A stretch of DNA of 64,000 nt. It comes from Photobacterium halotolerans DSM 18316. GTDB lineage: Bacteria; Pseudomonadota; Gammaproteobacteria; Enterobacterales; Vibrionaceae. This document shows, in pieces, positions 9,285 through 53,859 of the stretch. How positions within the stretch are numbered: position 1 is the first letter of the stretch; each line of letters starts with the position of its first letter. Both the position numbers and the translations under genes were made by a program. The stretch is from positions 62,001-126,000 of the forward strand of contig NZ_AULG01000017.1 in NCBI RefSeq assembly GCF_000425165.1, read 5' to 3'. The notes below the pieces were generated by a model. The model had not been told where the DNA came from. It worked only from the letters and a program-made list of their open reading frames with translations, and searched no databases.

Positions 9285-10241
9285 ATGCTGTTCCAACCTG
9301 CCTTACTGAAACAACAGCTAACGCGCTATCCCTTTTTCTGGCTTAGTGCGCTGATTTGCCTGATGCCATTCATCAACTCCCCGGTGGCGCTGATTCTGGG
9401 TTTCTCGCTCGCCACCTTAGGACTTGTCCCTGCCGATATTCCTGTCGCCGCCATCACAAAGAAATTGCTGTCGATGGCAATCATCGGTCTGGGGTTCGGC
9501 ATTCAGCTTGATGTTGCGATTGCAGCGAGCAAGGCCGGTTTATGGCTCATTGTTGCGTCCATTGTCGTGACGTTAGCCATGGGATGGGTACTCACCCGAT
9601 GGCTGAAGATAGACAGCAAAACAGGACATCTGATTGCATCCGGCACAGCAATTTGCGGTGGTAGCGCAATCGCAGCCGTTTCTCCGGCAATCAGCGCTAA
9701 CAGCCATCAGACCTCGCTGGCACTGGCGACGGTTTTCATACTGAACTCAGCAGCGCTCTTCTTGTTTCCCTCTGTTGGCCATTTGCTGGATATGACGCAA
9801 CATGAGTTTGGTGTCTGGGCTGCCATTGCCATTCATGACACCTCCTCAGTGGTGGGTGCAGCCGGGGCTTATGGCGACGAGGCGTTAAAAACAGCTACCA
9901 CGCTCAAATTAGCCAGAGCCTTGTGGATAATCCCGCTCGCGTTTGTCAGTGCTCTGATGTTTCGGGGGAAAGAAAAAAAACTCGCCGTACCAATGTTCAT
10001 CGTCTTCTATTGTATTGCCATGCTGACGGCGCACTGGCTTCCCCAATTCTCTGAGCTGTATCAGGGGATCTTCGCCCTCTCGAAACGCCTGTTGGTGGTG
10101 TGCTTATTTATGATTGGGGCAGGAATTACAGTACAGAAACTGCGTGCGGCCGGTTTCAAACCGCTGTTACTGGGTGTGATGCTGTGGTTAATTATTGGCC
10201 TGGGTTCACTGCTTGCTATATCGCTCGGGTTTGCCCAATAA
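9285..10241 (+). CDS. YeiH/UPF0324-family inner membrane protein
   Basis: The protein has 318 aa and about 10 hydrophobic helices. Family landmarks include SGTAICGGSAIAAVSPAI, HDTSSVVGAAGAYG and a C-terminal FMIGAGITVQKLRAAG. These match the UPF0324 (YeiH, PSE) family, sometimes annotated as putative sulfate exporters; the substrate is not firmly known. A longer frame from TTG at 9264 is possible, and neither start has a strong ribosome-binding site. It stands alone and converges on the UspE-like gene ending at 10275. No LysR gene is adjacent, unlike the usual yeiE-yeiH pair. Confidence 0.85.
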   Translation: MLFQPALLKQQLTRYPFFWLSALICLMPFINSPVALILGFSLATLGLVPADIPVAAITKKLLSMAIIGLGFGIQLDVAIAASKAGLWLIVASIVVTLAMGWVLTRWLKIDSKTGHLIASGTAICGGSAIAAVSPAISANSHQTSLALATVFILNSAALFLFPSVGHLLDMTQHEFGVWAAIAIHDTSSVVGAAGAYGDEALKTATTLKLARALWIIPLAFVSALMFRGKEKKLAVPMFIVFYCIAMLTAHWLPQFSELYQGIFALSKRLLVVCLFMIGAGITVQKLRAAGFKPLLLGVMLWLIIGLGSLLAISLGFAQ

Positions 10242-10274
10242 CCTGACCATGCGCGCTGGCAGATGATGTCAGCG

Positions 10275-11252
10275 TCACACAACCGGCGTTTTGAATCCCT
10301 CAGGCTTTATTGCTAATACAGAGCATTTGACTTGTTCTAAAATAGACTCTGCCGTATTGCCGATGATCAAACCGGGTATTCCAACCCGACCTACCGTACC
10401 CATCACGATGAGGTCTATGCCATATTTGTCTGTCATTAGTGGGATCTCTCTGGATGGTTTCCCTTTCACTAAGTGAATTCTGGGAAGAAGATACTTAATC
10501 GCATCTTTTCCTAACATGTCGTTCATTTCCCTAACAAGTATATCCAGTTTATCCGAGCATTTACGGCGTACTTGTTCGGTATATTGATCAACGTCTTTTT
10601 CTGGCAAATGAGTAAAAGCGCCATAACGATAAAAGTTTTCTGCATACGCATCCCAAGCACTTCCGACATGAAGTTGTGTCAACTCAGGCAGGCATAAAGT
10701 CACACTATACTCAAGCACTTGTCTGTTAAGCGCTTCCTGAACGCGCCCCTTATCCAGTTCACTGAAACTATCATTGACCGATACCGTTGCCAGGATATTT
10801 CGGAATCTGTCATCTTGCCCAGGCTTCAGAATTAAAACCGGACAGGGGCATTTGCGAAGTAAGTGCATATCTTCACTTCCAAATATACGGCTCAGCCAAT
10901 CAGATTCTTCGGCACACTTGACGACCAAATCGTGCTGATTTTTAAGCACGCTTTTTATGATCTCTATAAATCCGATACCGGAATAAACCTCAATGTTTGG
11001 CTTCACAGTGAGAGCCATTACCGATAGTCTGCTTGCGATTGTTGCTCGTTGGCTCTCCATTTGTTCGTCAAGAAACTTATGGTGATCCTCCTCTGGGTGG
11101 AGGGTCGATCGCCAGAAACCGACTGTTCCGATAACTGAAACAAATGTGATATCCGCCTGATGATCACTGGCAATTCTTATTGATTGGCTAACGGCTGTAT
11201 CAAAGGTGTGCTCAGAGTCAATCACACACAAAATACTGTTAAATCGTTTCAT
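10275..11252 (-). CDS. uspE: Tandem universal stress protein (UspE-like)
   Basis: The protein has 325 aa and two Usp domains. The second carries the nucleotide-binding pattern GTVGRVGIPGLIIGNTAE (G-x2-G-x9-GNT). The first has LRKCPCPVLILKPG at the equivalent end. The start is supported by GGTGGAGCT before ATG-AAA-CGA. UspE proteins are cytoplasmic stress-response factors in Gammaproteobacteria. The gene lies 39 bases downstream of the CPA2 antiporter on the same strand, so the two are probably co-transcribed. A paralogue with the same plan lies at 14013-14948. Confidence 0.9.
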   Translation of the reverse strand: MKRFNSILCVIDSEHTFDTAVSQSIRIASDHQADITFVSVIGTVGFWRSTLHPEEDHHKFLDEQMESQRATIASRLSVMALTVKPNIEVYSGIGFIEIIKSVLKNQHDLVVKCAEESDWLSRIFGSEDMHLLRKCPCPVLILKPGQDDRFRNILATVSVNDSFSELDKGRVQEALNRQVLEYSVTLCLPELTQLHVGSAWDAYAENFYRYGAFTHLPEKDVDQYTEQVRRKCSDKLDILVREMNDMLGKDAIKYLLPRIHLVKGKPSREIPLMTDKYGIDLIVMGTVGRVGIPGLIIGNTAESILEQVKCSVLAIKPEGFKTPVV

Positions 11253-46898: not shown

Positions 46899-47153
46899 AT
46901 GGCCAGCAGAGAGAGCATAGGTAAAGCAATAGCCACAGCAAGAAAAGCCAGAGGCACGACACAGAAAGCCATGGCAGAGCAGACAGGTATTAACAAAACC
47001 ACCCTGTCAGAAATTGAAAACGGTCGCTTTACCGGCTCCCTGGACATTTTCGAGCGCTACCTGGATGCCGTAGGTTTGCAATTACAAGTATCACCCAAAC
47101 ACCATCAGTTACCAGACTGGGATGATATCGACACACTGTTTGATGAGGACTGA
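46899..47153 (+). CDS. hipB: HipB-type antitoxin and autorepressor
   Basis: The protein has 84 aa. The XRE-type helix-turn-helix is clear: TTQKAMAEQTGINKTTLSEIENGRF. The C-terminus (DDIDTLFDED) is acidic and flexible, as in HipB where the tail contacts HipA or is degraded. It should bind the three palindromes upstream, repress the operon, and hold HipA inactive. The gene is followed 2 bases later by hipA. It lies at the left end of the accessory stretch between the Nudix gene and dsdA. Confidence 0.92.
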   Translation: MASRESIGKAIATARKARGTTQKAMAEQTGINKTTLSEIENGRFTGSLDIFERYLDAVGLQLQVSPKHHQLPDWDDIDTLFDED

Positions 47154-47155
47154 GC

Positions 47156-48376
47156 ATGGCCCTTGATCATCTGCCCGCCAAAATAGAAAAGATAACTGTA
47201 TGCCTGGAAGAAGACGAATTAGGCGTGTTAACGCACGGCTCCGTTCATCATTATCAGCCGATACAAACTCAACGCCATGCCTCTCTTACCATGACAAAGC
47301 CTAATCTGGATGGTTATTCCTCCGGTGCATTACACCCTATTTTTGCGCAGAATCTGCCCGAAGGCTTCAATCGCCGGTTCATTGCTGAAAAACTGGCAAG
47401 ATATGCCCGGGTCAATGACATGTATCTGCTCGCACTGCAGGGTAAACACAGCATAGGTATGCTCAGCTACCAGAGTGAATTACAGCTTCCGGAAGCTGAT
47501 TCGGTATCCCTGACTGATATTCTGACTTATCAGGGTGATACCCCCTTATTTCCGCAACTGCTCGAAAAGTATTACCTGCGTAATGCGCTGGCCGGTGTGC
47601 AGCCTAAGGTCAGCATTCCCAAAACAGACCGAACGGTTGAACAAAAAGATCTGATCGTTAAATCTTTCGATGCAGAGTTTCCATTACTGACAGTCAATGA
47701 ATATGTCTGTATGGAAGCGGCACGCCATTGCGGCTTAAAACCGCCGGCTACCTATCTGTCCGACAACATGGAAACCTTTGTTGTCGAACGTTTTGACAAA
47801 CCAGATGACCAGTTACTGGGGTATGAAGACTTCACCACCTTATTGAAAAAGCCCAACCACCCGGATGCCAAATATACAGGCAGCTACGAAACTCTGCTCA
47901 AAGCAACTCACCTGTACACCAACAGTTTGGCTGAGGTAGAGAAAATGTATAGATACATTGTCTTTAACTGCCTGATCGGTAACGGTGATGCACACCTGAA
48001 AAACTTCGCATTGCAATACACACAAGATATGCAACACATATTTGTCTCTCCGCCTTTTGATATCACCCATACCCTGATTTACGACACCATTGACAATAAA
48101 ATGGCACTCAAGATGGCGAACAGCAAAGTCTTCCCGGATAAACACCACCTGTTAAAGCTGGCCGAATCCACCAGCTTCAGAATTCGGCAGGCAGATAAGA
48201 TCATTGAAAAGCTGGCACAAGACATCAAAGACTATATAGATCGATCAGAGGAAATCCTGTTAATGGAAGGACTAAAAGCCTCCATAGATAAATCAGTGTC
48301 TGAGACCATGGTATCCAGCTACAGTGCAAAGTCGTATCGGCACGACAAAAAGCGTAAGTTTGAACAATTCACCTGA
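47156..48376 (+). CDS. hipA: HipA-type serine/threonine kinase toxin
   Basis: The protein has 406 aa. The N-terminal couple-HipA region contains GALHPIFAQNLPEGFNRR. The kinase core has the LAGVQPKVSI loop, with a catalytic loop GNGDAHLKNFAL (D278, N283) and metal-binding SPPFDI. All expected kinase residues are present, so the toxin looks intact. E. coli HipA phosphorylates glutamyl-tRNA synthetase and causes persistence; the target here is unknown. The C-terminus ends in a lysine/arginine-rich tail (YRHDKKRKFEQFT). The terminator is unclear. Confidence 0.93.
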   Translation: MALDHLPAKIEKITVCLEEDELGVLTHGSVHHYQPIQTQRHASLTMTKPNLDGYSSGALHPIFAQNLPEGFNRRFIAEKLARYARVNDMYLLALQGKHSIGMLSYQSELQLPEADSVSLTDILTYQGDTPLFPQLLEKYYLRNALAGVQPKVSIPKTDRTVEQKDLIVKSFDAEFPLLTVNEYVCMEAARHCGLKPPATYLSDNMETFVVERFDKPDDQLLGYEDFTTLLKKPNHPDAKYTGSYETLLKATHLYTNSLAEVEKMYRYIVFNCLIGNGDAHLKNFALQYTQDMQHIFVSPPFDITHTLIYDTIDNKMALKMANSKVFPDKHHLLKLAESTSFRIRQADKIIEKLAQDIKDYIDRSEEILLMEGLKASIDKSVSETMVSSYSAKSYRHDKKRKFEQFT

Positions 48377-48759
48377 AACAGTAATATATGTTTATATACC
48401 ATCTTAAACAGGATATTACGCTGCATATTTCCATTGAAAATGTTAAATAAACTCCTGTATACCTATATACCAGAAATGCTAACCGGTCTTAGTGACCGTA
48501 ATTACATCTATATCAACCTTACCATAAGTCATCACCAGACAAGAAAGCATCAATCGCAATATTTATAAAACCTTCAGTCCTTAAACAAAAGAATCCTAGT
48601 GCATAATACAAAGCTGTTAGTGATTATCTCAAAGGAAATATAGAGATAACTCTCTTACAGTTACTACTGTGACAGCAATGAAATTGCTAACACATACAAC
48701 GTCAGAGCGTTACTTAACAGTACGCCAATATAAGAAATAATTAATAAAGGAATATCAAA
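48377..48759. other. AT-rich leader between hipA and the regulator of the uncharacterised locus
   Basis: About 380 AT-rich bases contain no gene. A weak CGGTC/GACCG hairpin at 48484-48498 may end hipA transcription. The 13-bp motif at 48695-48707 recurs before the next gene. Confidence 0.5.
48695..48707 (+). promoter_or_regulatory. 13-bp motif, copy 1
   Basis: TACAACGTCAGAG occurs here, 53 bases before the ATG at 48760, and again at 49727-49739 before the 132-aa gene. A shared regulatory element is possible. Confidence 0.4.
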
Positions 48760-48810
48760 ATGAATATAACAAACTGTAAAAAAAATACTTTTCATTGGCA
48801 TGGGTACTGA
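48760..48810 (+). pseudogene. Out-of-frame 5' end of the regulator gene (or leader peptide)
   Basis: ATG at 48760 follows a strong AAAGGA and opens a 16-codon frame (MNITNCKKNTFHWHGY) that stops at 48808. The tract of eight A (48778-48785) lies within it. One extra A, or a -1 shift, would give MNITNCKKKYFSLAWVLSEK and join the long regulator frame. This looks like the true start of the regulator, put out of frame here. Confidence 0.6.
48778..48785 (+). repeat. A8 homopolymer at the frame junction
   Basis: Eight A in a row lie between the well-initiated 5' end and the body of the regulator gene. Slippage by one base here would switch the regulator on or off. Confidence 0.6.
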
Positions 48811-49580
48811 GTGAAAAACCAACTTACTCCATAGAACTGCAAGAAAAGCTATTTAAGGGGAATGTTCTTTTTTCTCATAAAAATATCAAAAGCATCTCAC
48901 AGTTACAATTTAGAGACACACCTGACTTGGTCATTATTGATGCGATCAACAATGATTTTGAACTCATAAAGGTCACAAAAAATGCGCTAACATTCCGCTT
49001 TCTACTGCAACAAACAACACCACCTGATTTCATTGCAATTATTAACAGTGAATACAATCACAAGAAGCAATTATTTGACATAGGTATCACTGATTACATT
49101 AGCTGTCCATTCATCAGCAAAGAGATCAACTACCGAATAATGCACATACTGCATTCCAATGAAAAAATAAAAAACACACATCAATCTAATGAATCCTTAT
49201 CTGCTCAAACATACAAAAACAACAATCTGGATTCCATGGATTCACAACTTATTTTAATTGAAAAGTGCATCAAACACCTCAATAGTACGATATCTGAAGA
49301 TGTCAGGCTAGAAACACTTTGCCGGCTACTTGGAACAAACAGAAACAAACTCAATCAGGTATTCAAAGATCACTTAGGCATGACTGTCTTCGAATGGCTG
49401 CGAAAACAAAGAATGTATAAGGCAGCAGAATTACTCGAAACGTCATCTCTCAACATTGTTCAAATCGCAGAAAAAGTGGGATACATGGACTCAAACAATT
49501 TTTCAACGGCATTCAAGCGTATCTACCATAATTGTCCCAGTCAGTTTAGAAAGCAATTTAAATCCTCTATACAGAATTAA
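48795..49580 (+). CDS. AraC-family regulator with receiver-like N-terminal domain
   Basis: The open frame is 261 codons from a TTG at 48795 that has no ribosome-binding site; the likely true start is the ATG at 48760 in another frame. The first 120 residues follow a response-regulator receiver plan: PDLVIIDA with the Asp position, PPDFIAIINSE, and FDIGITDYISCPFISKEINYRI. The conserved Lys is Cys, so normal phosphorylation is doubtful. Residues 160-258 form an AraC double helix-turn-helix (RLETLCRLLGTNRNKLNQVF, NIVQIAEKVGYMDSNNFSTA). No kinase is adjacent. It probably controls the four genes that follow. Confidence 0.75.
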   Translation: MAWVLSEKPTYSIELQEKLFKGNVLFSHKNIKSISQLQFRDTPDLVIIDAINNDFELIKVTKNALTFRFLLQQTTPPDFIAIINSEYNHKKQLFDIGITDYISCPFISKEINYRIMHILHSNEKIKNTHQSNESLSAQTYKNNNLDSMDSQLILIEKCIKHLNSTISEDVRLETLCRLLGTNRNKLNQVFKDHLGMTVFEWLRKQRMYKAAELLETSSLNIVQIAEKVGYMDSNNFSTAFKRIYHNCPSQFRKQFKSSIQN

Positions 49581-49726
49581 ACCCTGGCTTAAACTATCAG
49601 TAATCATGCGCAGTTCAAAGTTATAGATGATTTCAAAAAAGGAAAACATATCAGCATGACCTAACATTAAGTTACTCTTGAGAAAGTAAAGGTCTAAGTC
49701 AAAGAGCAATACATAGAAATATCTAC

Positions 49727-49739
49727 TACAACGTCAGAG
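49727..49739 (+). promoter_or_regulatory. 13-bp motif, copy 2
   Basis: TACAACGTCAGAG is identical to copy 1 and ends directly at the AAGGAG ribosome-binding site of the 132-aa gene. A diverged form, TACAAGCGTCAG, lies at 50344-50355 before the next gene. Confidence 0.4.
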
Positions 49740-49752
49740 AAGGAGCTTTACC

Positions 49753-50151
49753 ATGGCAGTTAACGTACAACAAACAGGAGCCATCAACAATATATACCCT
49801 GGCTCACCTGGTGTGTTTAATAACAATCAGAAAGAAGCGGTTTATAATGTTATAGGACAACTTACCTATGCAGATATCTACCGTAATAACGCGGGAACAA
49901 TTGTCCAAAACCAAACCATGCGTCTGGACATGCAGGGCACCTTTATGCAAGGTAACTATCGTTTTCATAACCTTCAGGTCCAGGTAAATGGTGTTAATGG
50001 TAATAGCACTGTTGCTCACGCCAATGTTTCTGAAGAAACAATGACAAACGATCAACCTAACCAGCAAGGCGTATTAAGAAAAGTGCAATCAGCACTTAAT
50101 CAAAGCTTTGATAACGCTGCAAGCTATCAGGTTACGGGTACTGCGCCATAA
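49753..50151 (+). CDS. Uncharacterised 132-aa protein (locus gene A)
   Basis: The ribosome-binding site is strong (AAGGAG, 7 bases). The protein has no signal peptide and no membrane segment. It is rich in Asn and Gln, with a middle of alternating polar and hydrophobic residues (MRLDMQGTFMQGNYRFHNLQ) that suggests beta structure. The C-terminal half has one likely helix (GVLRKVQSALNQSFDNAASY). There are no cysteines. I do not recognise a family. A long terminator hairpin follows, so this gene may be expressed well above the three genes downstream. Confidence 0.7.
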   Translation: MAVNVQQTGAINNIYPGSPGVFNNNQKEAVYNVIGQLTYADIYRNNAGTIVQNQTMRLDMQGTFMQGNYRFHNLQVQVNGVNGNSTVAHANVSEETMTNDQPNQQGVLRKVQSALNQSFDNAASYQVTGTAP

Positions 50152-50170
50152 TCTATACGTCTTTGCCATA

Positions 50171-50203
50171 AAAATAAAAGCTCATTCTATGGGCTTTTAT
50201 TTT
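50171..50203 (+). terminator. Terminator after locus gene A
   Basis: AAAATAAAAGCTCAT and ATGGGCTTTTATTTT form a 15-bp stem with one G-T pair and a 3-base loop, ending in T. It lies 20 bases past the stop. Confidence 0.88.
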
Positions 50204-50376
50204 ATAAAAAACAAAGCACGTCACATTAAAAAATAAAAACCATGATGACACAAAGAAAATAAGGTATTAAACAAAGGTTATCAGCACAAACTAACATTAT
50301 CTTTATCGTGTGCCTGAAAAATCAAGCACCATTAACCAACAAATACAAGCGTCAGTTAATCTATGAGGAAAACAAT

Positions 50377-51003
50377 ATGTCACAGTCACAAATCAACTTA
50401 AACTTTATTAACCGCTCTAATGATGTCAACAACAGCGAAGTGGTTATTTTCCAGAAAAATGTCGCCGAGAGTTTTGATGAAATAGCCATTGCCTGGCGGG
50501 TTATCCAAAACTGTGGACGTAATGATAACCATCCTTTCGTTTATCCTCTGAAATTCGAAGTCTGTGCGAGTGATTCCTTCGGTAATTACACACCACAGAT
50601 GACAGCCTACGACGGCCAGGCCTACGAAATGGTGAAAGACACGTCAGGTGATGTACTTCGGCTTGCCAGTACACCCGCCGTATCTCAACAGGAAGTCGAA
50701 CTTCGTAACAACCTGAGCAGCGGTTCAATTAATGCCAATATCTATCGTGACGGAAAGTTACTGGCTGCTAAAACCAATGTCTCACCTGGTCAGAAAGGGG
50801 TTTTCCAATTCCATCCAAGTATTTTCGTCGGGGTTGCATCACAAGTGGTTGAAGGTGAGGTGATGAATTCAGCGATTATCCAGCAAGTGAACACTGAAAT
50901 TAACCTGTTTGGTATTCAAAGCGCTGATCTTGTTATGACTGGCGGTGGTTCAGGACCAACAGCTTCGCCATTTGAATTCCATCTGGAAAACATCAATAAA
51001 TAA
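50377..51003 (+). CDS. Uncharacterised 208-aa protein (locus gene B)
   Basis: I chose the ATG at 50377 (MSQSQINLNF), 8 bases after GAGGAA; the open frame upstream has no such support. The protein has no signal peptide or membrane helix and looks beta-rich. Segments shared with gene D include VVIFQKN, IAWRVIQNC, SFGNYTPQ and a C-terminal VMTGGGSGPTASPFEFHL. The two are diverged paralogues. I do not recognise a named family. It may be cytoplasmic or released without a Sec signal. The hairpin at 51018-51044 separates it from gene C. Confidence 0.75.
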   Translation: MSQSQINLNFINRSNDVNNSEVVIFQKNVAESFDEIAIAWRVIQNCGRNDNHPFVYPLKFEVCASDSFGNYTPQMTAYDGQAYEMVKDTSGDVLRLASTPAVSQQEVELRNNLSSGSINANIYRDGKLLAAKTNVSPGQKGVFQFHPSIFVGVASQVVEGEVMNSAIIQQVNTEINLFGIQSADLVMTGGGSGPTASPFEFHLENINK

Positions 51004-51017
51004 AACTTAATAACCCG

Positions 51018-51044
51018 GGTGTTACAGCTTTTTACTGTAGCACC
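51018..51044 (+). terminator. Hairpin between locus genes B and C
   Basis: GGTGTTACAG and CTGTAGCACC form a 10-bp stem (one G-T pair) with a CTTTTTA loop. The T-run after it is poor, so it may attenuate rather than stop transcription. Confidence 0.55.
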
Positions 51045-51079
51045 TGCTTCAATCAACTCTTCTGTAAAGAGACATTATT

Positions 51080-51655
51080 ATGACGGACACTCAAACACTC
51101 TCAAATTCACACACCTGGCAGTCTGGCGACTGGAAAGATAAAGCCAACAGCCAAGCTCCTTATAACGGCATCCAGATCACTGGTATTCCGCAATATAATG
51201 ATAACGGCGCGTTTGTGTCAGCGGCCATTACCATTACGGATTATACGAATGATCCGGCGGGCATCAGCAGTAACATTCAGGCATTAACGATCGCACAAGG
51301 AAAAATAAACATCCCAGCCCCTGAAGCGCCGACAGATTCCGCTGACGCTGACAACAGCAATGAAACGACAAATTCAGATTCAGAACCAAACACTGCGCCT
51401 GATAACAGCGATACCGCCACGGTAGACGCCACTTCAGAACAAATCAACGCGGAGCCGGAAAATAATCAGAACGCGCAGCCTGATCCAAGTGATGATAAAA
51501 ATAACGACTTTACCGTTAATGGATGGCTTGCTCTGGAAAGCAATACCATGGATCTTTTTCTGCGGGTGCATTTTATGTACGGTCTCGAACCCTTTCAAAA
51601 GGAAGAGCTTGGCTACATTATGGGCTTCAGTGCGTTATTGAAAAGTGACGACTGA
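51080..51655 (+). CDS. Uncharacterised 191-aa protein with acidic linker (locus gene C)
   Basis: Three parts are visible. Residues 1-75 look structured (TWQSGDWKDKANSQAPYNGI, then AAITITDYTND). Residues 80-145 are disordered, rich in Asp, Glu, Asn, Ser and Pro. Residues 147-191 form a compact C-terminal segment (NGWLALESNTMDLFLRVHFM, then YGLEPFQKEELGYIMGF). There is no signal peptide. It lies between the two paralogues B and D on the same strand. The two-domain plan with an acidic tether suggests an adaptor or carrier role, but this is inference; no family is recognised. Confidence 0.7.
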   Translation: MTDTQTLSNSHTWQSGDWKDKANSQAPYNGIQITGIPQYNDNGAFVSAAITITDYTNDPAGISSNIQALTIAQGKINIPAPEAPTDSADADNSNETTNSDSEPNTAPDNSDTATVDATSEQINAEPENNQNAQPDPSDDKNNDFTVNGWLALESNTMDLFLRVHFMYGLEPFQKEELGYIMGFSALLKSDD

Positions 51656-51691
51656 GACGTTCAGTTGTTCAATTATCGGGGACAGGAAAGT

Positions 51692-52273
51692 ATGCAAACG
51701 GATATTTCCTTTCGCAACTTATCATTGAACACTCATTTGCCGAGTGTCACTATTTTTCAGCGAAATCATCTTAATAACAGTACAAGGTGTATTGCATGGA
51801 AAGTCATAACGCACTGCCAGTACAAATGGAGTCATCCGTTCAGAATAGAGACAAGTTACAGTTACCGGCTCTGCGATAGCCATGGTAATTACAGTACCGC
51901 CAGAAACCTATCTCTGGAGAAACTCCCCCATCACGACGAACATGGCCTGCTAATCACTCGGGACACCAACATTATCAGTGTGAGGAAAACCACAGACAAT
52001 AAATATACAGGTATTCAGTTGCTGAAGAACAATCGCGTCATTGCCAATAACGCATTAAGTAATGACTTTCACACGTCGTTTCAACTGACGGACACATTTT
52101 ATATCGCGGCAGATCTGAGGACATCACAAGGAAAACTCATACACCCCATCAATATGAACATGAGTCTGACAGGCTTTGATATTCACGATAAAACCAGAAT
52201 CGATATTACTATGACAGGTGGCCAACCGGGGGCGGAGTCCAGCCCCCTGACGTTTCAGATTTCAGCTATTTAA
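51692..52273 (+). CDS. Uncharacterised 193-aa protein (locus gene D, paralogue of B)
   Basis: I chose the ATG at 51692 ([11 protein letters not shown]), which follows AGGAAAG; a longer TTG frame from 51665 lacks a site. It shares with gene B the landmarks [24 protein letters not shown] and a C-terminal [16 protein letters not shown]. The identity between B and D appears low outside these, so the duplication is old. There is no signal peptide. Its stop codon overlaps the stop of dsdA on the other strand, with no terminator between. Confidence 0.75.
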
Positions 52274-53613
52274 GACACAGTATCAACACCCGATTTGGCA
52301 AGATACGACGCCATTTCTTCAGGTGGTACCATGCCACCGCCCGTTGCCCAGACAAGATGAGTCGCATTTTTCATTTTCTGGTGATCAAACAGCATGCGAG
52401 CGGCATAGTCATGGTCCCGGCTGACATGCACGGGACCGGGCATACCTGCCAAGGCAGACGGCTCCAGTTTAATGCCCTCGCTTTGCGCTAACTGCCCCAG
52501 TAAACGGTACATGTGCTCATCCGACAGCGTGAAATACCCGTCCAGCATTCTCTCCATAGCCCGCCCCACAAAACCAGACGCCCGGCCTACTGCCAGCCCA
52601 TCGGCTGCCGTCAGATTATCCAGGCCAATATCCTGTACAGAGATCGCATCATGCAAACCGGTATGCACCCCCAGTAACATGCAGGGCGAATGGGTGGGTT
52701 CAGCAAAAATACAGTGAACGTGATCGCCAAACGCCATTTTTAATCCAAATGCAACACCACCAGGCCCGCCACCAACGCCGCATGGCAGGTAAACGAACAG
52801 CGGGTGCGTATCATCAACCACAATCCCCTGCTCTGCAAATTGCTTTTTCAGACGCTCACCAGCCACAGAATAACCAAGAAACAAGGTACGGGAATTTTCA
52901 TCATCAATAAAAAAACAGCGCGGATCTTTCTCAGATTCTTTGCGCCCTTTTTCTACCGCAACGCCATAATCCTGTTCATACTCCACTACATTCACGCCAT
53001 GATCTCTGAGCTTCTGCTTTTTCCACTCTCTGGCATCCGCTGACATGTGAACCGACACAGAGAAGCCCAGTTTGGCACTCATAATGCCAATCGACATCCC
53101 CAGATTACCTGTCGAGCCGACCGCAATACTGTACTGGCTGAAAAAATCCCTGAAAGCGTCCGAATACAATTTACTGTAATCATCGGATACAGACAGCAAC
53201 CCGGCTTGTGTCGCCAGTTTTTCAGCGTGTGTCAGGACTTCGTAAATACCGCCCCGCGCTTTGATCGAGCCGGAAATAGGCAGATGGCTGTCTTTTTTCA
53301 GCATCAAACGACCCGCAATCTCAGTGCCGTAACAAGCCTCAAGAGACTGCTTCATCGCAGGGATATCAACCAGCTCAGACTCAATCAAACCGTTTGTCTT
53401 TGCCGTTTCAGGAAATACAGTTGCCAGAAAAGGTGCAAACCTTGCCAGCCTGTCACTGGCATCCTGAATGTCCTGAGCATCTAAACCTACGTGAGGCAAG
53501 GCTTTACTCACACTGGTGACAGCCGGGTTAAACCAGCACACTTCCTCCAAAGCAGTCAATTGATTAAGTAATGGGTAATCAGCCTTAAGCTTTTCCACAT
53601 CAATGGGAGTCAT
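52270..53613 (-). CDS. dsdA: D-serine ammonia-lyase
   Basis: The protein has 447 aa from the ATG at 53613, which has AAGGA 7 bases upstream; the open frame extends to 53802 without support. E. coli DsdA has 442 aa. The PLP-lysine motif is [16 protein letters not shown], and the phosphate loop is [17 protein letters not shown]. It converts D-serine to pyruvate and ammonia in the cytoplasm. No dsdC regulator or dsdX transporter is nearby. The stop overlaps that of locus gene D by 3 bases. Confidence 0.94.
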
Positions 53614-53859
53614 GGCAGGTTCCTTTTGGTAACTAAAGACAACGAAGAGATTGCTGAGCAAAGTGATTCTAAGTGGAGTGAGGACAGATAGAAAGCACTC
53701 CGAAACTATCACGCTGACTGTGGGTAGACAGCCCATTACAAAAATACAAATACGAAACAAAAATAACACAATGATCACAAATAAATAACATTTGTGAGGC
53801 AAGGCTGAATTTTGCCACTATGATTCCAACTCATCGGAGGTCTAACAAGGAGAGTAACA

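Follow-up and report, generated by a model that had tools for sequence, protein, structure and literature searches.

The window, a 64,000-nucleotide stretch of DNA from the marine bacterium Photobacterium halotolerans DSM 18316, carries what is best explained as the front part (activator-B-C-D) of a longer conserved operon that is nameless in all libraries searched. On this explanation, to which we give an even chance of being right as a whole, a slippage-gated activator would control the building of a multi-protein assembly in the cytosol. That the activator is split is well supported by sequence comparison, the regulator being encoded in two frames that meet at a run of eight adenines (A8). 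The features of the locus are as follows.

46899-48376, hipBA (HipA_C, E 8e-43)
48746..48752, + strand, Shine-Dalgarno-like AAAGGAA before the leader ATG, read from the sequence
48760..48810, + strand, 16-aa leader frame (ATG to TGA) that supplies the zero frame of the split regulator
48778..48785, + strand, A8 slip run, read A_AAA_AAT in the zero frame
48780..49580, + strand, regulator in the -1 frame, with the N-terminal part and the AraC HTH
49753..50151, + strand, gene A, 132 aa, N/Q-rich, a variable slot outside the core
~50171..50203, + strand, terminator-like stem-loop after A
50377..51003, + strand, gene B, 208 aa, a widespread family
51080..51655, + strand, gene C, 191 aa, acidic linker between two conserved parts
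51692..52273, + strand, gene D, 193 aa, start ATG 51692, a diverged paralogue of B
52270-53802, - strand, gene called dsdA in the sequence-only reading of this DNA

The ORF map places the regulator and A, B, C and D on the + strand between hipBA and the minus-strand gene, and ORF positions and strands confirm the earlier description of five co-directional genes between hipBA and dsdA. The end of D overlaps the end of the minus-strand gene by 4 bases. The stretch is AT-rich, as had been described, with a GC content of 0.32-0.46 in 500-base windows starting at 48250-51750 vs mostly 0.42-0.55 outside.

The regulator harbors an AraC HTH (HTH_18, E 1.1e-22, residues 175-254), the C-terminal two-HTH DNA-binding domain that places it in the AraC/XylS type. 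It had been described as a receiver-like AraC regulator; the AraC part stands, and the receiver likeness is one seen by eye, since the window protein, when translated from TTG 48795, has no Response_reg domain at E<=1. The regulator does not simply start at 48760, the first position given in the earlier reading: the ATG there lies in another frame and is joined to the regulator frame only via a shift at the A8. That reading overlooked this split and also that the window covers just the first part of a longer operon. The arrangement is strictly kept. In all seven Photobacterium species, the leader ATG lies exactly 18 nt before the run, the run has exactly eight A and the -1 slippery heptamer A_AAA_AAT stands in the zero frame, and AGGAAT or AGGGAT occupies the Shine-Dalgarno place in the seven sequences.

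From the run onward, the -1 frame is under purifying selection, even in species without a start codon there. Over the first 43 codons of L023 vs L024, this frame gave dS 0.77 and dN 0.09, the other frames giving 0.15/0.15 and 0.04/0.24. The selection test concerns the downstream frame, the 18-nt upstream part being too short for one, and in two of seven species pairs (WIN-L022 and L020-L022) another frame also had dS slightly above dN. The sequence features of a slippage gene are thus found together, namely a conserved homopolymer at the junction and a downstream frame selected without its own start.

A simpler layout would have the regulator start at TTG 48795 or further inside, with the ATG frame acting as a small upstream frame that controls the regulator and B-C-D forming an ordinary accessory operon. 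The ORF list does open the regulator at this TTG (48795-49580, 261 aa), the entire AraC HTH lies inside that frame, and an upstream frame could couple translation. In the window, L020, L021 and L022, codon 6 of the regulator frame is a TTG, which could act as a poor internal start in those four. Nevertheless, no Shine-Dalgarno sequence is visible ahead of the TTG, and in L023, L024 and L019 the first in-frame start comes 24, 43 and 97 codons in, yet the first 43 codons are under protein-level selection. The loci L083 and L093 also argue against it, as their break falls, judged by eye, on the border of the first AraC HTH; compared with each other, they give pS 0.77 and pN 0.18 over the 23 codons preceding any start in L083. 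We regard an internal start as distinctly improbable.

The gene directly upstream of B is split at A-runs also in Flavobacteriia, Labilibaculum, Rhodospirillales and Nitrospinaceae. When the 2.6 Mb of fetched loci were scanned on both strands under strict conditions, 12 sites came up among 628 runs of A>=7, and 8 of the 12 fell in the gene upstream of B. In the same scan, 628 runs of T>=7 gave no site and 378 G or C runs gave four, none of them the regulator. The hypergeometric P for the 2.3 kb before B is 2e-5, with the interval picked after seeing the sites and related species counted separately. Three repeats of Photobacterium loci among the 90 locus records (L086, L090 and L092) were left out of the slippage scans, and two B. 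stagnalis records (L017 and L051) were kept. Six loci with this same split layout are absent from the strict scan: the window, L020, L021 and L022 because a TTG follows closely on the run, L074 because it has two A9 runs, and L091 because its run is A6. Three regulators of this type, those of L076, L079 and L099, have no split, which counts against gating.

The A8 could also be a phase-variation (contingency) switch, in which heritable DNA slippage changes the frame and the sequenced genomes happen to be OFF. Such A-tract variants are described in Vibrio cholerae, for wbeL (A8 to A7) and manA (A9 to A8), and in the portion of that report dealing with these genes reversibility is confirmed for manA only (PMC3441752). 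These cases share with the present one an A-tract of 7-9, in frame there, and the bacterial family, and additional in-frame runs inside split regulators (A10 in L083, A9 in L097 and A8 in L089) would also suit a contingency locus. In V. cholerae, however, full length is the norm as described and OFF variants arise from it, whereas the run here is exactly A8 in all seven species, each time leaving the regulator in the same wrong frame. By our own estimate, which treats species as independent, chance would produce this with a probability of ~(1/3)^6 for three equal frame states, or (1/2)^6 for two OFF states. Phase variation is therefore unlikely in our view, and from these comparisons slippage during expression is the likely explanation of the A8.

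In the slippage mechanism, the making of full-length activator would be confined to the minority of messages, or of ribosomes, undergoing a slip at the A8. The simplest route would be the addition of one A by RNA polymerase; -1 ribosomal slippage on A_AAA_AAT would also fit. Plain folding of six sequences, without pseudoknots, gave no shared stimulatory structure downstream (z of -0.8, -0.6, -1.4, -2.1, +0.8 and +1.0). This is not decisive, because the account of frameshifting in PMC4066793 names, among the cases it presents, a proven -1 frameshift without a known stimulator. Considering both the lack of a common structure and the +1 shift required by L097 and L089, transcriptional slippage fits better than a single -1 ribosomal signal. 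With activator made only by the slipping minority, the operon would be kept low, perhaps firing in few cells.

The closest precedent is MxiE of Shigella, an AraC-family activator whose full-length product is described as arising by transcriptional slippage (PMC9769918, PMC5009743). MxiE would share with the present regulator the AraC family, the dependence on slippage and the control of accessory genes; it serves type III secretion, and the present regulator precedes another operon. A survey of the E. coli genome lists, in the part concerned, four predicted regulators among its frameshift candidates, without functional proof (PMC4066793), and the term 'AraC' is absent from the main text of PMC3711429. 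No description of the operon was found in the portions of the open-licence PMC literature that the search covered. Because simple ORF callers truncate such regulators, this type of control would be missed in annotation.

A total of 109 GTDB stretches encoding B relatives were identified and 80 were fetched, the gene calls in fetched loci being ORF picks made in this analysis. The regulator, B, C and D form a conserved core, adjacent and with an unchanged gene order across phyla from Photobacterium to Bacteroidota. Among 50 B genomes searched (out of the 80), C was found in 12, in single copy and with coordinates inside the B locus. It occurred in one of 299 genomes of the family sample, namely the B-bearing centre, and in seven of 99 relatives, which are the seven Photobacterium with B. 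Homologues of B, C and D thus travel together with the regulator, and the earlier reservation that they might be scattered and never together does not hold for these three. Each locus carries one to four related copies of the B/D family. In the 90 locus records, no locus holds both C, present in 22, and the S32 family, present in 7; the models for these counts were seeded from the loci in which they were counted, so that the counts of D, S32 and the NUDIX-like family lean upwards.

B and D had been proposed as diverged paralogues, and this is borne out by an identity of 22% across 209 columns, with a blastp E of 1.6e-12 in a set of 13 proteins, and by the recovery of D in a genome search with B (E 1.5e-8). 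The acidic tether noticed in C is likewise present, as residues 79-140 form a low-complexity linker with 16 D/E and 1 K/R between the two conserved parts. Hydrophobicity means over residues 1-30 showed no hydrophobic N-terminus in A-D (best 11-residue mean 0.78), in agreement with the proposed absence of a Sec signal, and no TM-like segment was found in them. The dN/dS pairs for the window vs L021 were 0.013/0.30 for A, 0.004/0.41 for B, 0.12/0.49 for C and 0.08/0.48 for D. B is the most constrained of the four (dN/dS about 0.01), and 67 of 72 aligned rows are 43-77% identical to the window B, the remaining five being D-type.

As had been anticipated, only the regulator is recognizable by family. 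A-D have no convincing family match in Pfam, NCBIfam, PHROGs or PADLOC, and their weak Pfam, NCBIfam, PHROG and PDB matches (E 0.004 to 1) were short or under cut-off. Among these, a Pumilio fragment matched by the B/D profile in the PDB (E 0.004 over 61 positions) was judged to be chance, and the best E for the C profile against PDB chains was 0.05. The earlier suggestion of an accessory system with its own regulator and no family name is supported by the cross-phylum co-occurrence and the lack of a curated match.

Gene A, which had been counted as a member of this system, does not belong to the core. Judged from its neighborhoods, A is a passenger: two of the seven Photobacterium species carry an unrelated gene at its position, and in three annotated records of rhizobial and Variovorax plasmids the relatives of A have different neighbors. 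The slot would carry an exchangeable passenger, N/Q-rich in some cases and bearing Cys-His-Asp motifs in others. The protein in the window is indeed Asn/Gln-rich as described (27% N+Q), and the strong terminator assigned to it corresponds to a 15-pair stem of -14.7 kcal/mol that is found by folding and is absent from the consensus-scan list. No relative of A was present among the phage records searched. A match of A to Rad60-SLD_2 (E 0.008, 16.8 bits) lay under the cut-off of 23 and was rejected.

In most C loci outside Photobacterium, the operon is longer: 10 of these 12 loci continue into a ~950-aa protein, usually together with a phage-tail-collar protein (8 of 12), and related loci have GH25, phage lysozyme, GH18 and Rv2525c-like hydrolase enzymes as neighbors. 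The ~950-aa protein has no convincing Pfam or NCBIfam family and no match among PDB chains at E<=1. C was considered as a copy of its N-terminal part (hhalign E 0.076 over 43 columns); with an hhalign probability of only 0.7%, no kinship is claimed. The window version has no large protein, collar or lysin, and GJ3, alone among the seven Photobacterium genomes, encodes the large protein, at a distance of 620 kb from its B.

On the basis of these fuller loci, we infer, more weakly, that B/D and C would serve in the cytosol as components of a hetero-multimeric assembly. Where the operon is fuller, the ~950-aa protein would form the base of the assembly and the tail-collar protein its tip, and the lysozyme-type enzymes would free the assembly or open a wall. 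The earlier proposal of a self-assembling particle, unconventional export or a contact function could fit, as the collar, the cell-wall hydrolases and the multiple B copies in other phyla point that way, with the choice of role staying conjectural. More tentatively, an undescribed trans-phylum assembly may exist whose activators, of varied regulator types and with runs at varied positions, were repeatedly and independently put under homopolymer slippage, recoding noise picking the few cells that build it. If true, several activator families split at A-runs before the same operon in different phyla would mean that slippage is selected as a form of control, and these loci would be a natural set for studying it. 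Since B, C, D and the ~950-aa protein are conserved yet match no Pfam or NCBIfam family convincingly, solving B by itself would be enough to open a new family.

Instead of being structural, B, C and D could function as cargo or as immunity-type proteins for a system of injection or contact and have moved as a cassette, the Photobacterium locus then being an orphan cassette. The exchange of the A slot between species, the patchy distribution of the locus (7 of 52 Photobacterium genomes) and the occurrence of eCIS_core-type proteins at two places, ahead of the B genes of L064 and in the vicinity of the GJ3 large protein, are in keeping with this. B, however, is unlike fast-evolving effectors because of its strong constraint and its high identity across most aligned rows. 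Moreover, the T4/eCIS tube family (PF06841) is found in only 6 of 26 genomes and in none of the seven Photobacterium, and in G104, G127 and G148, three of the six with both positions, it lies away from the B locus. We consider a mobile cassette quite unlikely, and the same tube counts led us to reject an eCIS accessory as a general rule.

Other known systems resemble the proposed assembly in part. Its fuller operons encode a collar protein like those of phage tails and tail fibres (PF07484), unlike the window, which has none, and B, C, D and the ~950-aa protein show only short, weak matches to phage proteins. A phage or prophage origin was rejected, as searches of IMG/VR contigs and of 50,697 phage records gave no confirmed relative of B. 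R-bodies were considered because the large-protein/collar locus of GJ3 has RebB genes (PF11747) at a distance of a few kb; they were rejected since an IS-type gene (by eye) stands between the two and the GJ3 Reb proteins had no phmmer match at E 0.01 in other loci. A PADLOC defence system was also rejected, A, B, C and the large protein having no model match and the match of D to MTase_II (E 0.018 over 53 residues) being judged chance. Separately, a NUDIX-like protein of L083, absent from the window, matches PDC-S07 with E 2e-6.

The AT-rich stretch of the window between hipBA and the gene read as dsdA harbors five co-directional genes, an AraC-type regulator followed by the small genes A, B, C and D, with B and D being diverged paralogs. 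Gene calls and sequence comparison uphold this observation of the sequence-only reading. Its interpretation holds in part: the regulated accessory system, which is conserved, was retained, but A is a passenger rather than a member and the system is longer elsewhere. A profile search, which that reading had called for, gave no convincing match for A–D in Pfam, NCBIfam, PHROGs or PADLOC. Likewise, PDB sequences showed no convincing match to B alone, to the B/D profile, to the C profile or to BIG, a ~950-aa protein of the fuller operons, and no hydrophobic N-terminus was present in A–D. The most striking feature of the system, beyond the earlier reading, is a split activator, which begins as follows.

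48760, + strand: leader frame, opening with ATG and a Shine-Dalgarno sequence, in a different frame from the regulator
48778-48785: run of eight A (A8), at the junction of the two frames
48795, + strand: regulator frame, opening with TTG, with no Shine-Dalgarno sequence seen before it

From its ATG, the leader frame runs 18 nt to A8 and stops 25 nt beyond it; either a -1 shift or a single A added to the message joins the two frames. In all seven Photobacterium species with B and D, the ATG, its 18-nt distance from the run and a run length of exactly eight A are preserved, despite the leader differing between two clades. The regulator frame runs for 24, 43 and 97 codons before its first start codon in loci L023, L024 and L019, respectively, and the protein is conserved over that stretch. 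Over the first 43 codons of the L023/L024 pair, the -1 frame shows a dS of 0.77 and a dN of 0.09, with corresponding values of 0.15 and 0.15, and 0.04 and 0.24, in the other frames. For the other six pairs, the dS/dN ratio of the -1 frame is between 2.7 and 10, and dN is larger than or nearly equal to dS in the other frames, except that one other frame has dS slightly above dN in each of the pairs window–L022 and L020–L022. Because dS exceeds dN in the -1 frame and not generally in the others, this frame reads as translated.

Among Photobacterium, B and D were found in 7 of the 52 genomes searched. P. galatheae, P. arenosum, P. salinisoli and Photobacterium sp. GJ3 carry the same locus as the window, and the upstream and downstream order is identical in the loci read except in P. 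galatheae, which lacks hipBA. A GTDB scan with one genome per species gave 187 pattern matches, and 109 of them code for a relative of B. The 80 best of these 109 loci, which were taken further, come from Burkholderiales, Colwellia, Alphaproteobacteria, Desulfobacteraceae, Nitrospinaceae, Enhygromyxa, Nannocystis, Acidobacteriota, Candidatus Anammoxibacter, Melioribacteraceae and many Bacteroidota. A Calothrix plasmid also carries a B relative; none was confirmed in viral contigs and phage records. In an alignment of 73 proteins, window B is 43-77% identical to its relatives in 67 of 72 rows, the remaining five being D-type proteins (18-32%).

Splits at A-runs recur in the gene before B in other phyla. 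In L083 and L093, this gene is of AraC type with two HTH domains by eye and is split at an A8 with a -1 offset (pS 0.77, pN 0.18 over 23 codons ahead of any start in L083). The split is at A8 in L097 and at A7 in L089, both +1, with a weaker case (A6, +1) in L091, a relative of L089. The AraC-like gene of L074 (5353-6241) occupies three frames with two A9 runs, each needing a -1 shift, and a TPR histidine kinase is split at A10 in L081. Unsplit regulators of the same type occur in L076, L079 and L099, and the LuxR-type regulator of L068 and the Mor-type regulator of genome G074 are whole Pfam matches. Further long A-runs lie in frame inside split regulators at L083 5993 (A10), L097 7513 (A9) and L089 5969 (A8).

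The fetched loci were scanned under strict criteria, namely an ATG-opened frame before the run with a stop at most 30 codons after it, and a shifted frame open for at least 120 codons and lacking a start codon in the stretch that ends 15 codons beyond the run. The scan returned 12 sites among 628 A-runs of at least seven, eight of them in the gene upstream of B, and none among 628 such T-runs; 378 runs of G or C gave four, but not at the regulator. With 83 of the 628 A-runs within 2.3 kb before B, the hypergeometric P is 2e-5, a generous figure since the region was chosen after the sites were seen and related species were counted apart; independent lineages number about five.

A message of normal length would yield only the short peptide, and slippage at the run would limit the amount of activator. 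From sequence, transcriptional slippage is preferred over a ribosomal -1 shift, because folding of the downstream sequences gave no common structure after the run and because L097 and L089 would need the opposite shift; ribosomal -1 slippage on A_AAA_AAT is possible. The main rival is phase variation at the A-run, which is favored by the A-tract variants known in V. cholerae (PMC3441752) and by the further in-frame A-runs inside some regulators, and is opposed by the identical A8 in seven species. The closest known likeness is the slippage-made activator MxiE of Shigella (PMC9769918, PMC5009743).

Gene order was compared in 90 locus records (the best 80 B loci, nine others and the window; three are repeats) using profiles built from these loci. 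C occurs in 22 records and a D-type protein in 19 (15 by model Dp, four by D44), every one a C locus. BIG is present in 32, a phage-tail-collar protein in 31, a glycosyltransferase in 23 and the S32 family in seven, with C and S32 never in one locus. The 12 C loci outside Photobacterium include BIG in 10, collar in eight and glycosyltransferase in four, some loci ending before that point. The fullest order, in L083, is regulator-B-C-D-(NUDIX-like)-BIG-collar-glycosyltransferase. The NUDIX label comes from PHROG matches of the L083 protein; the L076 protein has no Pfam match. The L083 protein (9795-10460, between D and BIG) also matches the PADLOC candidate PDC-S07 (E 2e-6). In Ruegeria loci L076 and L079, collar is followed by a GH25-type gene, and the L079 regulator is on the opposite strand. 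Since the operon goes on in other loci, the window holds the front part of a longer operon. Of the seven Photobacterium genomes, only GJ3 encodes BIG. There it is accompanied by a collar protein, ~620 kb away from B, and PatG-like, eCIS_core, AAA and RebB genes are nearby. In this second GJ3 locus (L107, 3081-17418), BIG and collar adjoin the PatG-like, eCIS_core and AAA ATPase genes, and the RebB (R-body) genes lie past an IS-type gene, called by eye.

Loci of Burkholderia and relatives are a different flavor of the system, with up to three B copies adjoining a phage-type lysozyme, DUF2589 and a phasin-like protein (Phasin_2 match below its cut-off), and no match to the C or BIG models. DUF2589 was matched in 18 loci, for example L017 (2072-7296) with tandem B, phage-type lysozyme and phasin-like protein. 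Cell-wall enzymes recur, namely GH25 in three checked proteins, phage lysozyme in two, and GH18 and an Rv2525c-like protein in one each; two more candidates, in L064 and L085, have no Pfam match. The multiple B copies, the lack of export signals, the collar protein and the wall enzymes suggest that the operon would produce an assembly in the cytosol, to be released or delivered across the cell wall.

The core genes travel together, as a neighborhood check proposed with the earlier reading bore out. C occurs in 12 of 50 whole genomes (a subset of the best 80 B genomes), once each and in all 12 within the B locus. It was found in one of 299 genomes of a family sample searched for C only, the B-bearing center genome, and in seven of 99 relatives, the same seven Photobacterium as B; G074, the eighth B-bearing genome among these relatives, lacks C. 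In L020 (4085-4666; G039:C2:1366084-1366662), one TAA was counted in the aligned D stretch, and the called ORF is nonetheless 193 aa.

Gene A, which had been proposed as a member, is a passenger. It is present in five of the seven Photobacterium, and in P. galatheae and GJ3 its slot is taken by another protein.

L024 5548-6327 and L019 3906-4748: A-slot replacement protein, ~245 aa, with conserved Cys...His...Asp motifs

These motifs look papain-like, and the protein is possibly a papain-like protease; the GJ3 copy has no Pfam match and the P. galatheae copy one PHROG match (E 0.09). One relative of A (34%) lies in G053, a further genome of the Vibrionaceae. Eleven plasmids (seven Rhizobium, three Sinorhizobium and one Variovorax) carry others, with unrelated neighbors in the three annotated plasmid records examined. 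On pRL10 of Rhizobium johnstonii 3841 (L126, 5947-6312), a lone A relative lies directly downstream of nif genes and fdxB.
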